A stretch of DNA of 64,000 nucleotides from Devosia faecipullorum (GTDB taxonomy: Bacteria > Pseudomonadota > Alphaproteobacteria > Rhizobiales > Devosiaceae), in the NCBI RefSeq assembly GCF_015158295.1, contig NZ_JACDXV010000002.1:124001-188000 (forward strand). Reading direction: 5' to 3'. How positions within the stretch are numbered: the stretch's first letter is position 1; every line of letters begins with the position of its first letter. This document shows, piece by piece, positions 21,179-52,841 of this stretch. The position numbers and the translations under genes were made by a program. The notes beneath the pieces were generated by a model that did no database searches, was not told where the DNA came from, and saw only the letters and a list, made by a program, of their open reading frames with translations.

Positions 21179-21254
<76 letters not shown>

Positions 21255-25884: not shown

Positions 25885-25986
25885 AGCGTTTCCAGGAAAA
25901 GTGGATACCGGTTTTCCGGTTCGGAAACGCGATAAAACAAACACTTAGACCATTTCAACGTTTCTACTAAACGCTGAAATGATCTA
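25881..25986. repeat. ~100-bp intergenic repeat, copy 1
   Basis: It begins at CTAG (PagL-like stop codon) and ends at CTAG (stop codon of the minus-strand flavoprotein). It shares ordered blocks with 37569-37672: AGGAA..GTGGATA, TTCCGG, GCGATAAAACA, CCATTTCA and CGCTGAAATG. The last two form a terminal inverted repeat. Similar elements are familiar in Hyphomicrobiales intergenic regions. It may end transcripts of both convergent genes. Confidence 0.8.
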
Positions 25987-27174
25987 GGCTATTTGCCCGG
26001 CTGCCCAGCCCGAGGCCCAGGCCCATTGGAAATTATAGCCGCCGAGCCAGCCGGTGACGTCCACCGCTTCCCCGACAAAGAACAGGTTCGGTACGTCGCG
26101 CGCCATCATGGTCTTGGCGTCGAGCCCCCTGGTGTCGATGCCGCCCAGCGTCACCTCGGCGGTGCGATAGCCTTCCGAGCCCACCGGCTTGAGGCTCCAG
26201 CGCTTGACGATATCGGCGGCGGCCTGGAGCTTCTTGTCGGAGAGGTCGCCGATCATGCCGGGCTGATCGATGATCTCGCCCATGAGCTGGGCCAGCCGCT
26301 TGGGCAACTTTTCGGCAAGGATCGTCTGGATATGGAGCTTGGGGCTGGCCTGGCGGGCGGCGCGGAGCAGGTCCATGGCATCCTCATGGGGCAAGAGATC
26401 GACGGCGATGGCATTGCCCTCGCGCCAATAGGACGAGATTTGCAGGATGGCCGGGCCGGAAAGGCCGCGATGGGTAAAGAGCAGCGCTTCCTCGAATGCG
26501 GTCTTGCCATGGCTGATAATGGCATTGGTGGAGACGCCGGCCAGGGGCTTGAGCTTTTCCAGCGCCCCAGGCTCGAACATTAGCGGCACCAGAGCCGGGC
26601 GGGTGTCGGTGACCTTGAGGCCGAACTGGCGGGCAATGTCATAGGCAAGGCCGGTGGCGCCCATTTTGGGAATGGACTTGCCGCCCGTGGCGACGATGAG
26701 ACTGGTGGCGGTGACCCGTCCGTCGCCGACCATGACGTCGAAACCCTCCTCGGTCCGCTCGATGCTGCCAATGGTGCGGCCGGTCCAGATCGCGGCCCCG
26801 GCCTGGCGCAGTTCGTTGATCAGCATGGCCACGATCTGGGTGGCCGGGCCATCGCAGAACAATTGCCCCAGCGTCTTTTCGTGAAAGGCGATGCCGTTCT
26901 TTCTCACCCGCTCGATGAACATTTGCGGGGTGAAGCGCGACAGGGCCGAGAGGGCAAAGCGCGGATTGCTGCTGAGAAAGCGGTCGCGCCCGATCGTATG
27001 AGTGGCGTTGATATTGGTGAAATTGCAGCGCCCACCGCCCGAAATACGGATTTTCTCGCCCGGATCGCGGGCGTGATCGACCACCAGCACCCGGCGGCCG
27101 CGCCGCGCCGCCTCGATGCCGGCCATCATGCCCGCGGCGCCGGCGCCTAGAATGATCACGTCAAAATCGGGCAT
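25984..27174 (-). CDS. BaiN/HI0933-type FAD-dependent oxidoreductase
   Basis: A 396-aa flavoprotein of the HI0933/BaiN (YhiN) family. The FAD Rossmann motif opens the protein (VIILGAGAAGMMAGIEAARRG), followed by the family signature EKIRISGGGRCNFTN. FTHRGLSGPAILQISSYW lies in the inserted domain, and the closing LFFVGEAVDVTGWLGGYNFQ carries the second FAD contact. Family members are often of unknown substrate; BaiN acts on bile-acid intermediates. The start is the natural MPDFDVIILG. The stop codon lies within the end of the ~100-bp repeat. Upstream is the asd leader region on the other strand. Confidence 0.9.
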   Translation of the reverse strand: MPDFDVIILGAGAAGMMAGIEAARRGRRVLVVDHARDPGEKIRISGGGRCNFTNINATHTIGRDRFLSSNPRFALSALSRFTPQMFIERVRKNGIAFHEKTLGQLFCDGPATQIVAMLINELRQAGAAIWTGRTIGSIERTEEGFDVMVGDGRVTATSLIVATGGKSIPKMGATGLAYDIARQFGLKVTDTRPALVPLMFEPGALEKLKPLAGVSTNAIISHGKTAFEEALLFTHRGLSGPAILQISSYWREGNAIAVDLLPHEDAMDLLRAARQASPKLHIQTILAEKLPKRLAQLMGEIIDQPGMIGDLSDKKLQAAADIVKRWSLKPVGSEGYRTAEVTLGGIDTRGLDAKTMMARDVPNLFFVGEAVDVTGWLGGYNFQWAWASGWAAGQIA

Positions 27175-27231
27175 GGATTATCCTCTTGGTTGCCGCAGGC
27201 CTATCGCTCTCCCTGAAGCGGAGCAAGCGCA

Positions 27232-27259
27232 TTGACTCTTTCCTATTTGAGAGTATGAG
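27232..27259 (+). promoter_or_regulatory. Candidate promoter of the asd leader
   Basis: TTGACT at 27232 and TATGAG at about 27254 are spaced 16 bases apart. This would start transcription near 27266, shortly before an AGGAAG ribosome site and the leader peptide ATG. Confidence 0.45.
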
Positions 27260-27293
27260 AAGTCCTGCTCTGTCATAGGAAGCATTGTTCGTC

Positions 27294-27386
27294 ATGAATC
27301 GCACCGGCTCCATCGCCGTTTCCGCCTCGACCCGGCCACTCGCCGGGGGCGCTGCGCTCATGACTAAAACCACCAAAACCGCCTGA
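27294..27386 (+). CDS. Putative Thr/Lys leader peptide upstream of asd
   Basis: A 30-codon ORF too short for usual gene calling. ATG 27294 is preceded by AGGAAG. The C-terminal part reads MTKTTKTA: four threonine and two lysine codons within seven before the stop at 27384. It is followed within ten bases by a GC hairpin and then by asd, the aspartate-semialdehyde dehydrogenase gene shared by threonine, lysine and methionine synthesis. Codon runs for pathway end-products followed by a hairpin are the classical attenuator layout, as in thrL. The evidence is positional only; no U-tract follows the hairpin clearly. Confidence 0.5.
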   Translation: MNRTGSIAVSASTRPLAGGAALMTKTTKTA

Positions 27387-27393
27387 CGCTTTT

Positions 27394-27456
27394 CCCCGGG
27401 TCCTCCTCCCGCCGGGGAGAGGCTCAAAGCAAGCGACCGCGATGGTCTTCATCGCG
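27394..27456 (+). promoter_or_regulatory. Hairpins between the leader peptide and asd
   Basis: Hairpin one: CCCCGG-12 nt-CCGGGG (27394-27417). Hairpin two: CGCGATG-GTCTT-CATCGCG (27438-27456). Neither is followed by a good T-run. They could form the alternative structures of an attenuator or mask the asd ribosome site. Confidence 0.4.
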
Positions 27457-27492
27457 CGGGGGTGGAAAATGGTAAGGGACCGGAGTTCCAAA

Positions 27493-28533
27493 ATGGGTTA
27501 TCGCGTCGCTGTCGTCGGGGCCACAGGCAATGTGGGTCGCGAGGTTCTCAATATCATGGCCGAACGCAAGTTTCCGGCCGATGAGGTCATTGCTCTGGCC
27601 TCGTCCCGTTCGATCGGCAAGGAATTGTCCTATGGCGACAAAGTGCTGAAGACGCGGGATCTGCAGCATTTCGATTTTTCCACCGTCGATTTCGCCATCA
27701 TGTCGGCGGGCGGCTCCATCTCCAAGGAATGGGCGACCAGGATCGCTGCCGCCGGGGCCATCGTCATCGATAATTCCTCCTATTGGCGCTATCACTCGGA
27801 TGTGCCGCTGATCGTGCCGGAAGTGAACGGAGATGTGCTCGACCGTTGGCTCGCCGATCCCAAGCGCACCAATATCATCGCCAATCCGAATTGCTCCACC
27901 GCCCAGCTGGTGGTGGCGCTGAAGCCATTGCACGATGCCGCCAAGATCAAGCGCGTCGTGGTCTCGACCTATCAATCGGTGTCCGGCGCCGGCAAGGAAG
28001 GCGTGGACGAGCTGTGGAATCAGACCAAGGGCATTTTCGTCAATGACAGCCCCACCCCGCAGAAATTCACCAAGCAGATTGCCTTCAACGTCATTCCCCA
28101 CATCGATAGCTTCATGGAAGACGGCTACACCAAGGAAGAGTGGAAGGTGCTGGCCGAGACCAAGAAGATCCTCGATCCCAAGATCAAGGTAACCTGCACG
28201 GCGGTGCGGGTGCCGGTCTTTGTCGGCCATTCCGAGGCGGTCAATATCGAATTCGAAAACCCCATCACCGCCGATGAGGCGCGCGAGGCGCTGCGCGAGG
28301 CCGATGGCATTGCCGTGCTCGACAAGCGCGAGGCCGGCGGCTACGCCACTCCGGTCGAGACGGTGGGTGAATATGCTACCTATGTGTCCCGCATCCGCGA
28401 AGACGTCACTGTCGAGAACGGGCTGGCCATGTGGGTGGTGTCGGACAATCTGCGCAAGGGCGCGGCGCTCAATACGATTCAGATCGCCGAAACCTTGATC
28501 CAAAAGGGTTTTGAAAGCCGCAAGGCAGCCTGA
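27493..28533 (+). CDS. asd: Aspartate-semialdehyde dehydrogenase
   Basis: NADP-dependent enzyme making aspartate semialdehyde, the branch point to lysine/diaminopimelate, threonine and methionine. The product is 346 aa, the usual length. Motifs: VAVVGATGNVGREVL (NADP site), NPNCSTAQLVVALKPL with the catalytic Cys, and VSTYQSVSGAGKEG. The frame opens at 27442, but ATG 27493 (MGYRVAVVGA) is the family start and has GGAG upstream. A putative Thr/Lys leader precedes it and a UUCG-loop terminator follows, so it appears monocistronic and possibly attenuated. Confidence 0.96.
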   Translation: MGYRVAVVGATGNVGREVLNIMAERKFPADEVIALASSRSIGKELSYGDKVLKTRDLQHFDFSTVDFAIMSAGGSISKEWATRIAAAGAIVIDNSSYWRYHSDVPLIVPEVNGDVLDRWLADPKRTNIIANPNCSTAQLVVALKPLHDAAKIKRVVVSTYQSVSGAGKEGVDELWNQTKGIFVNDSPTPQKFTKQIAFNVIPHIDSFMEDGYTKEEWKVLAETKKILDPKIKVTCTAVRVPVFVGHSEAVNIEFENPITADEAREALREADGIAVLDKREAGGYATPVETVGEYATYVSRIREDVTVENGLAMWVVSDNLRKGAALNTIQIAETLIQKGFESRKAA

Positions 28534-51670: not shown

Positions 51671-52105
51671 CTAGCCGCGCTTGCCGATGTCCCATTCGGG
51701 CAGCGGAAACACCCGGTCATAGGCCCAGTTGAAGACAAAGGCGTAGCCCATGTAGAAAAGGGCCAGCGCAATATCCATTGCCAATGCATCCCAGAGCGAA
51801 ATCTGCAAATACCAGGCAATGGCCGGCAGCATGATGAGCAGCAGGCCTAGCTCGAACAGCAGGGCATGGAGCACGCGGATGGGCGTGGACTTTTCCGTGC
51901 CGCCGCGCAGCCGGACCATCGCATGGTCGAAGCCGAGATTGTAGATATAGTTCCACACCATGGCGATGGTGGCGCCGGCCACCACGATGACGGCGCTGTC
52001 CTCGCCCGGCAGGTGAAAGGCGAAGGCGGCGAGCGGCGTCGCCAGCAGAATGCCGATGATTTCGAAGGAAACGGCGTGACGGATACGGTCGGCAGTTTTG
52101 CGCAT
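51671..52105 (-). CDS. PACE-family efflux transporter
   Basis: A 144-aa four-helix inner-membrane protein of the PACE (AceI-like, bacterial transmembrane pair) family that exports biocides such as chlorhexidine or, naturally, polyamine-like compounds. The conserved Glu15 lies in VSFEIIGILLATPLAAFAF, and the second repeat has LHALLFELGLLLIMLPAIAW, giving the duplicated two-helix pattern. The open frame runs to 52318, but ATG 52105 opens the family start. GGGGA precedes it. Confidence 0.88.
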   Translation of the reverse strand: MRKTADRIRHAVSFEIIGILLATPLAAFAFHLPGEDSAVIVVAGATIAMVWNYIYNLGFDHAMVRLRGGTEKSTPIRVLHALLFELGLLLIMLPAIAWYLQISLWDALAMDIALALFYMGYAFVFNWAYDRVFPLPEWDIGKRG

Positions 52106-52229
52106 GGCAATCCCCAAGACTGCGGGCCGTCCCGAACGATGACCCGAAATGGGGGAGGTCGTCCTCACGCCGGGCGATATAGGACGTTCCGGTTTTGCCG
52201 GCAAGGCCGGGGCGGGCATGTCCGCTATT

Positions 52230-52841
52230 CTATGGGCGCAGGGTGAAGATACCGGCGCGCTGTGGGGCGGTTCCGCCCATGTCCGGCAAGGCATATTCGG
52301 CGATCTGTTCGAGGGCATGGAGCGGCAGATGGCGGCGAAAGGGATCGCCGATCAGGACGCTGGCGCCATTTTGGGCCAAAGCGCGGAGCAGGGGCAGCGT
52401 CGCTCGGGCAATTTCTGCGTCATAAAAGACATCGCCGGCCAGAACCAGATCGGCGGGGACCAGGTTGTCGGTGACGTTCAGATCGAGGCCATTGGCCTTG
52501 GCGTTCAGTCCGATGGCGATGCGCCCCAGCGGATCGGGTTCGCAGGCGGTGACCCGCGCCGCGCCGGCCAAGGCAGCGGCAATGGCCACAAGGCCCGAGC
52601 CGGCGCCGAAATCCAGCACGCTCCTGTCGGCGACTATTTCGGGCTGGACGGAAAGATGGAGCGCCAAAGCCGCGCCCCCGGCCCAGGCATAGGCCCAATA
52701 GGGCGGACGGTCCGCGTGGCCCTGCTCGGCAAGAAAGGCATGGAGCCCGCTTTGCGGAATGGGGCGGTAAAGCGCAATATCGGGGCGAAAGGCCAGCTTT
52801 TCCAGCCGCATGTGCTGAAGGATGAAGCCTTCCGGGTTCAT
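52230..52841 (-). CDS. Protein lysine methyltransferase (ETFB-KMT-like)
   Basis: A 203-aa SAM methyltransferase of the METTL20/ETFB-lysine methyltransferase type. The N-terminal PPYWAYAWAGGAALALHL is the family mark, followed by VLDFGAGSGLVAIAAALAG (motif I), CEPDPLG, and the LAGDVFYD catalytic element. Bacterial members trimethylate lysines of the electron-transfer flavoprotein beta subunit. The start ATG directly follows the YbaK stop, so it ends the chain ispA - MOSC - YbaK - KMT. Confidence 0.85.
   Translation of the reverse strand: MNPEGFILQHMRLEKLAFRPDIALYRPIPQSGLHAFLAEQGHADRPPYWAYAWAGGAALALHLSVQPEIVADRSVLDFGAGSGLVAIAAALAGAARVTACEPDPLGRIAIGLNAKANGLDLNVTDNLVPADLVLAGDVFYDAEIARATLPLLRALAQNGASVLIGDPFRRHLPLHALEQIAEYALPDMGGTAPQRAGIFTLRP

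Follow-up and report, generated by a model that had tools for sequence, protein, structure and literature searches.

A leader peptide rich in threonine and lysine codons precedes asd in Devosia and many other Rhizobiales and is a candidate attenuator

The asd locus

The window analysed here is a stretch of 64,000 nucleotides of Devosia faecipullorum DNA, within which asd and a divergently transcribed gene for an HI0933-like oxidoreductase are separated by a gap that holds a short open reading frame and a set of hairpins (Table 1). The product of asd feeds the synthesis of lysine, cell-wall diaminopimelate, threonine, methionine and isoleucine. A first-pass annotation of the sequence had described in this gap a 30-codon frame ending in MTKTTKTA, two GC hairpins and then the start of asd, all of which are present. 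The promoter-like pair that it listed is also there, and a block with TATGA at its end is conserved in the alignment of the genus, but a strict sigma-70 consensus scan yielded no site. Its ribosome site AGGAAG can likewise be read in the sequence, although the genus alignment does not show it to be conserved.

Table 1. Features of the asd locus, with positions in the window
Feature	Position	Strand	Details
HI0933-like oxidoreductase gene	25984-27174	minus	divergent from asd
Gap between the two genes	27175-27492		
Promoter-like pair	27232-27259	plus	TTGACT (27232-27237), 16-nt spacer, TATGAG (27254-27259); read from the sequence
AGGAAG	27277-27282		
Alternative leader start	27285		TTG, giving 33 codons
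Leader peptide ORF	27294-27386	plus	30 codons, ending MTKTTKTA; ATG 27294, TGA 27384-27386
Regulatory codons	27363-27380	plus	Thr-Lys-Thr-Thr-Lys-Thr (ACT AAA ACC ACC AAA ACC), then GCC TGA
Hairpin 1 (2:4)	27388-27423	plus	GCTTTTCCCCG 27388-27398 with CGGGGAGAGGC 27413-27423; begins one base past the leader stop
Region 3	27406-27411	plus	CTCCCG in the loop of hairpin 1; putative switch element, can pair with region 4 or region 6
Hairpin 2	27438-27456	plus	CGCGATG with CATCGCG
Region 6	27457-27462	plus	CGGGGG, putative partner of region 3
Third hairpin	27476-27489	plus	small; contains the asd Shine-Dalgarno GGAG (27482-27485)
asd	27493-28533	plus	aspartate-semialdehyde dehydrogenase; Pfam PF01118 3.2e-31, PF02774 4.6e-56

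Other parts of the window carry a tRNA gene (21182-21254, minus), a match to the ffh sRNA family (RF01793, 3801-3851, plus) and a Guanidine-II riboswitch (RF01068, 52122-52170, minus). The riboswitch overlaps the 5' part of an open reading frame (51671-52318, minus) with a Pfam BTP match, the chlorhexidine efflux transporter; the true start of this frame is probably downstream of the riboswitch, and its product may export guanidinium.

Conservation of the leader within the genus

All 75 genomes of the genus have asd, whole or partial. Five were left out of the comparison, four of them with a broken or partial asd (G004, G041, G048, G054) and G072, so that 70 upstream regions were read, 69 by script and one (L018) by eye. 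A leader with a Thr/Lys-rich end stands at the same place before asd in all 70 loci, and the scripted loci all have an in-frame ATG 24 to 40 codons 5' of the leader stop (69/69). The end reads TKTTKTA in 47 of these 69, many leaders having a Met directly before TKTTKT, whilst L054, which ends in AKTTTTA, is among the least typical. The N-terminal half of the leader drifts across the genus and the Thr/Lys end persists, which is the pattern of kept codons and drifting neighbours that the first-pass annotation had proposed to look for in an alignment.

Leaders were scored by the number of Thr or Lys codons per 8 near a stop upstream of asd, with at least 6/8 taken as a pass. Of the 69 genus loci 60 pass, compared with 0/69 reverse strands and 0/690 dinucleotide shuffles. 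A search of the 3.4 Mb genome gave a single TKTTKT site, the one before asd, and likewise a single site for the same pattern written backwards as a control. Judged from these comparisons the Thr/Lys leader peptide of asd is real and is conserved beyond what chance would give.

Distribution across the order

The leader is not confined to the genus. In a family survey of 60 loci from 52 families of the order (1-6 per family), a Thr/Lys leader precedes asd in 23 families at 6/8 and in 25 at 5/8; at the latter threshold it is absent from 27 of the 52 families sampled, and two families (f14 and f52) have possible weaker versions at 4/8. A further order set gave 20 of 30 loci at 6/8 or more, with none among the reverse strands and 0/300 among the shuffles. 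Named genomes gave 35 of 79 loci (a further one, L179, was dropped from the 80 as its start was not found) as against no reverse strands and 1/790 shuffles, a count that includes three loci which pass the score and look unlike the leader, L116 and the two that lie outside the order or are unplaced, L176 and L185. Within the family taken to be the Rhizobiaceae 56 of 70 loci, nearly all of different genera, pass as against no reverse strands and 1/700 shuffles, this set being the best 30 by score of 111 genomes with 40 from the rest, so that the lowest-scoring ones are missing from it. Named genera that pass include Pseudorhizobium, Rhizobium, Sinorhizobium, Neorhizobium, Brucella, Mesorhizobium, Bosea, Microvirga, Kaistia and Roseibium. 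The score of 6/8 was not reached in the sampled records of Bradyrhizobium, Rhodopseudomonas, Methylobacterium, Ancylobacter and Rhodobacterales, and among the Sphingomonadales records sampled only L176 passes, with an unlike ending.

The endings of the leader vary between taxa, with KTTAKTTTKTV, TTKTTTKTTAGKTRTSH, KTTTKTA and KTSKTTKTA among them. A stricter pattern, TKT[APST]KTx followed by a TGA stop, is found in 11 of 297 genomes of the order and lies directly upstream of asd in 10 of these 11. Had the leader peptide failed to recur in relatives the first-pass annotation would have given up its proposal, and with 70/70 loci of the genus and 23/52 families it does recur.

Codon make-up of the leader

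The Thr and Lys codons are gathered at the end of the frame. In leaders that were chosen by passing the score, the last 12 codons are Thr or Lys in 52% of cases in the genus and in 72% in the Rhizobiaceae, and over the preceding 14 codons the shares are 17% and 5%. The spelling differs between the two groups, with Thr being ACC in 229 of 252 cases in the genus and ACG in 169 of 303 in the Rhizobiaceae, and Lys being AAA in 123/123 and 149/169 respectively. The order and number of the Thr/Lys codons, as well as their spelling, change across genera and families. Two further amino acids were considered as signals and set aside: none of four sets shows an enrichment of Ile towards the end of the leader, and Met is enriched in the genus only (0.09 vs 0.03). 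Some Rhizobiaceae leader ends (e.g. L253, L205) also have a small hairpin inside the regulatory codons, GACC..GGTC or GACG..CGTC, that covaries, with two-sided changes in 2/4 pairs (0/300 shuffles reach this), some of them synonymous Thr changes.

Two readings would make these codons something other than a sensor. If the peptide acted as an arrest peptide, or did its work as a small protein, it is the amino-acid sequence and not the codons that should matter, and the great stability of TKTTKTA within the genus would fit, as would the detection of the tagged S. meliloti peptide, which is cytoplasmic according to the part of PMC10117765 that was available. The variation in order, number and spelling of the codons across genera and families speaks against this and makes it very unlikely, the persistence of the residues whilst their codons are reordered and respelled being easier to reconcile with a sensor of tRNA charging than with a fixed peptide. 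Alternatively the frame could be a chance ORF within a conserved RNA element, since the genus alignment shows conservation of the DNA itself around the stop codon; given that neither shuffles nor reverse strands reproduce it and that the in-frame ATG is kept throughout, hardly any weight can be attached to this.

RNA structures downstream of the leader

Hairpin 1, which lies on the stop side of the leader, is near-invariant in the genus with 99% of cells paired, and a two-sided change is seen in 1 of its 11 pairs, in one sequence. In other families a helix of different sequence occupies its position (L084, L088, L089 and L114 are examples). The best duplex of the first 18 bases after the stop with downstream sequence beats shuffles in three sets that overlap in taxa, with a mean z of -1.69 (n=69), -1.43 (n=56) and -1.42 (n=64 loci). 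Amongst 21 picked loci the minimum-energy fold contains hairpin 1 in L001, L035, L082, L088 and L114 and a shorter hairpin that shares its 3' arm in L004, L051 and L117. The stop-side helix is, on these alignments, conserved.

The alternative pairing 3:4 also hardly varies in the genus, and the loop of hairpin 1 is no more complementary to region 4 than chance would give in the loci that allowed the test (69 of the genus, 12 of the Rhizobiaceae and 30 others). Helix 3:6 has 97% of its cells paired, and two-sided changes are confined to 1/6 pairs (3 cells), and the hairpin that contains the Shine-Dalgarno sequence is also paired in 97%, with no two-sided change. Hairpin 2 has two-sided changes in 7/8 pairs amongst 67 distinct genus sequences, which none of 300 column shuffles reach. 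A long-range helix between the last codons and downstream sequence, CCGCC with GGCGG, was rejected: it is 90% paired and is left unsupported by having no two-sided change and by sliding by -3 pairing better (0.94).

Clearer signs of a putative switch are found in the Rhizobiaceae, where 63 sequences were aligned, 7 of the 70 having been left out by a score and distance rule. Region 2 has as its partner there the 3' arm of a hairpin further downstream, and this 2:4 helix has two-sided changes in 7/10 pairs; the 3:4 hairpin has them in 2/6 pairs. A third helix, E, in which a pyrimidine stretch between the 2:4/3:4 parts pairs with purines just upstream of the asd Shine-Dalgarno sequence, has them in 5/8, and 0/300 column shuffles reach the count for any of these three, although the choice of helices, here as in the genus, had itself been made on these sequences, and kinship is ignored in the counts. 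The 2:4 and 3:4 helices, both of which covary, are mutually exclusive. An additional hairpin covaries in 4/5 pairs. Most of the alignment belongs to one of two sequence types, with 23 and 28 members, beside 12 others, and independent covariation events are thus fewer than the cells counted. Pairing of the Rhizobiaceae Thr/Lys codons with region 2 (GGCCAA:TTGGCC) is unsupported, being 74% paired and reached by 70/300 shuffles. The compensating hairpin changes that had been suggested as a check are found in hairpin 2 of the genus, in several Rhizobiaceae helices and in hairpin 1 between families.

A proposed attenuator and its output

The reading that we prefer, and consider probable from the sequence comparisons, is that the leader belongs to a ribosome-mediated attenuator of asd that senses the charging of tRNA-Thr and tRNA-Lys. 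Threonine and lysine are both made from the product of asd. A Thr/Lys attenuator was what the first-pass annotation had proposed, and the conserved leader and codons, the drifting neighbours and the compensating hairpins support it. A ribosome would translate the leader close behind RNA polymerase. Were charged tRNA-Thr or tRNA-Lys scarce it would stall on the Thr/Lys codons, 2 to 7 codons before the stop, leaving the bases after the stop free, such that regions 2 and 4 could pair as the stop-side hairpin. With both tRNAs charged the ribosome would reach the stop and cover region 2, and regions 3 and 4 would pair otherwise. The 2:4 state would be the one in which asd is expressed and the alternative state the one in which it is lowered, this direction and output being those we infer.

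How the switch would act on asd may be thought of in three ways. The classical one is transcription attenuation with an intrinsic terminator, as for thrL or trpL. Using as criterion a GC hairpin between leader and asd with at least 4 U within the 6 bases that follow it, such terminators are found in 14/64 Rhizobiaceae leaders (shuffled 10/640), though in none of the Rhizobium/Sinorhizobium-like type, in 7/37 named leaders (shuffled 7/370) and in 4/33 of the family set (shuffled 5/330); examples between a Thr/Lys leader and asd are Brucella rhizosphaerae L120, Mesorhizobium metallidurans L146, L230, L253 and L258. Against this, L176 and L185, which are among the seven named cases, are unlike the asd Thr/Lys leader, an intrinsic terminator scan of the stretch before asd found none, and no genus locus has one (0/69, shuffles 15/690). 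The missing U-tract that was conceded as the weak point of the original proposal is therefore a property of the whole genus, which makes classical intrinsic termination unlikely here, and as a general output we rate it as unlikely too. Termination by Rho would account for the absent U-tract. Rho would then load at the C-rich, G-poor end of the leader, which a stalled ribosome together with hairpin 1 would hide from it, and in the 69 genus loci the peak of C over G does lie in the 30 bases from -20 to +10 of the stop-codon end (C 0.42, G 0.11). However, ACC and GCC codons by themselves produce such a bias, the peak in the Rhizobiaceae and other loci falls further downstream, within the 30 bases that follow the stop, and Rho sites cannot be proven from sequence, so that a Rho output is somewhat on the unlikely side, if less so than an intrinsic terminator.

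The remaining way is translational, with region 3 (CUCCC, CUCUCC) pairing a purine stretch upstream of the asd Shine-Dalgarno sequence unless the stop-side helix traps it and so prevents this. Helix E of the Rhizobiaceae and helix 3:6 of the genus would be such pairings, and both exclude 2:4. Folding in which a ribosome was placed either at the leader stop or on a Lys codon, and access to the asd start compared, did not give a consistent opening of that start. In the genus 17/69 loci changed each way with the ribosome on the second Lys, and on the first 13 of 69 went in the expected direction and 27 in the opposite; in the Rhizobiaceae the lean was the wrong one, with expected against opposite changes of 5 vs 12 of 23 and 8 vs 22 of 40 on the second Lys and 4 vs 14 of 23 and 7 vs 26 of 40 on the first. 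The strengths of duplexes between the post-stop bases and the asd start also count against it, being near chance with a mean z of +0.06 in the genus (23/69) and -0.80 and -0.51 in the Rhizobiaceae. The covariation of helix E in the Rhizobiaceae points the opposite way from these folds. A translational output is likewise on the doubtful side, if slightly less so than Rho. For the genus, control around the asd start or by Rho is favoured over intrinsic termination.

A wider claim can be put forward, tentatively and with more doubt than belief, namely that an attenuator across much of the order reads threonine and lysine together and switches asd through the stop-side hairpin without an intrinsic terminator, its output having been rewired between lineages. 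The same tentative claim takes in that one reading could end in a terminator-like hairpin in the Mesorhizobium/Brucella-like Rhizobiaceae and in none in the genus.

Significance

If the Thr/Lys attenuator is correct, then by counting both threonine and lysine codons the leader would gate the aspartate family at its branch point by simple molecular means, in an order that includes plant symbionts, pathogens and soil bacteria. Relatives with the same sensor and seemingly different outputs would also make the evolution of attenuator output testable.

Comparison with known systems

One parallel is thrL, the attenuator of the E. coli thr operon, in which a leader with Thr and Ile codons is followed by hairpins. 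The asd leader is alike in having codons of two end products with hairpins following, and differs in its target, in using Thr plus Lys and in having no U-run terminator in the genus. In other bacteria, elements such as the Rfam asd RNA motif and the lysine riboswitch stand before asd or lysine genes. An Rfam search of the stretch before asd gave no family at gathering score, and its sole match up to an E of 5, the alphaproteobacterial sRNA ar14 (27317-27426, plus), is full-length and overlaps the leader end and hairpin 1, but at 16.5 bits against a cut-off of 58.8 (E 0.68) it is probably a chance match.

A literature search returned no asd leader besides SEP5, the attenuation surveys of 2004 and 2010 being outside its scope, and searching PMC1273637, PMC2965389, PMC4833913 and PMC4117421 by words gave nothing on one. 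The first-pass annotation was aware of no described attenuator leader for asd, and in this it had missed SEP5, already reported from Sinorhizobium meliloti 2011 in 2023 (PMC10117765). As given in the available part of that paper, SEP5 is a small ORF that lies in the 5' UTR of a gene there named aspartate dehydrogenase and carries six Thr and three Lys codons towards its end, its translation being supported by Ribo-seq and by Western blot of a tagged fusion expressed from another promoter. The asd leader of Sinorhizobium psoraleae ends in KTTAKTTTKTV and has the same six Thr and three Lys, and by way of the named Sinorhizobium loci, from place and codon make-up, SEP5 is taken to be the asd leader of S. 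meliloti.

The same order has a leader-peptide attenuator in trpL/rnTrpL of S. meliloti, also translated by Ribo-seq, which differs in being a tryptophan attenuator of trpE with an mRNA that begins at the trpL AUG (PMC10117765, available part). For SEP5 itself the role of a leader peptide was suggested there as a possibility, with conservation in Sinorhizobium only, and the available part of the paper gives it no RNA switch, whereas here the leader is found in 23 of 52 families and is followed by alternative helices. The reported range of the SEP5-type leader is so widened from one genus to much of the order and, set against that part of the earlier account, the wide distribution, the codon pattern and the putative switch are new.
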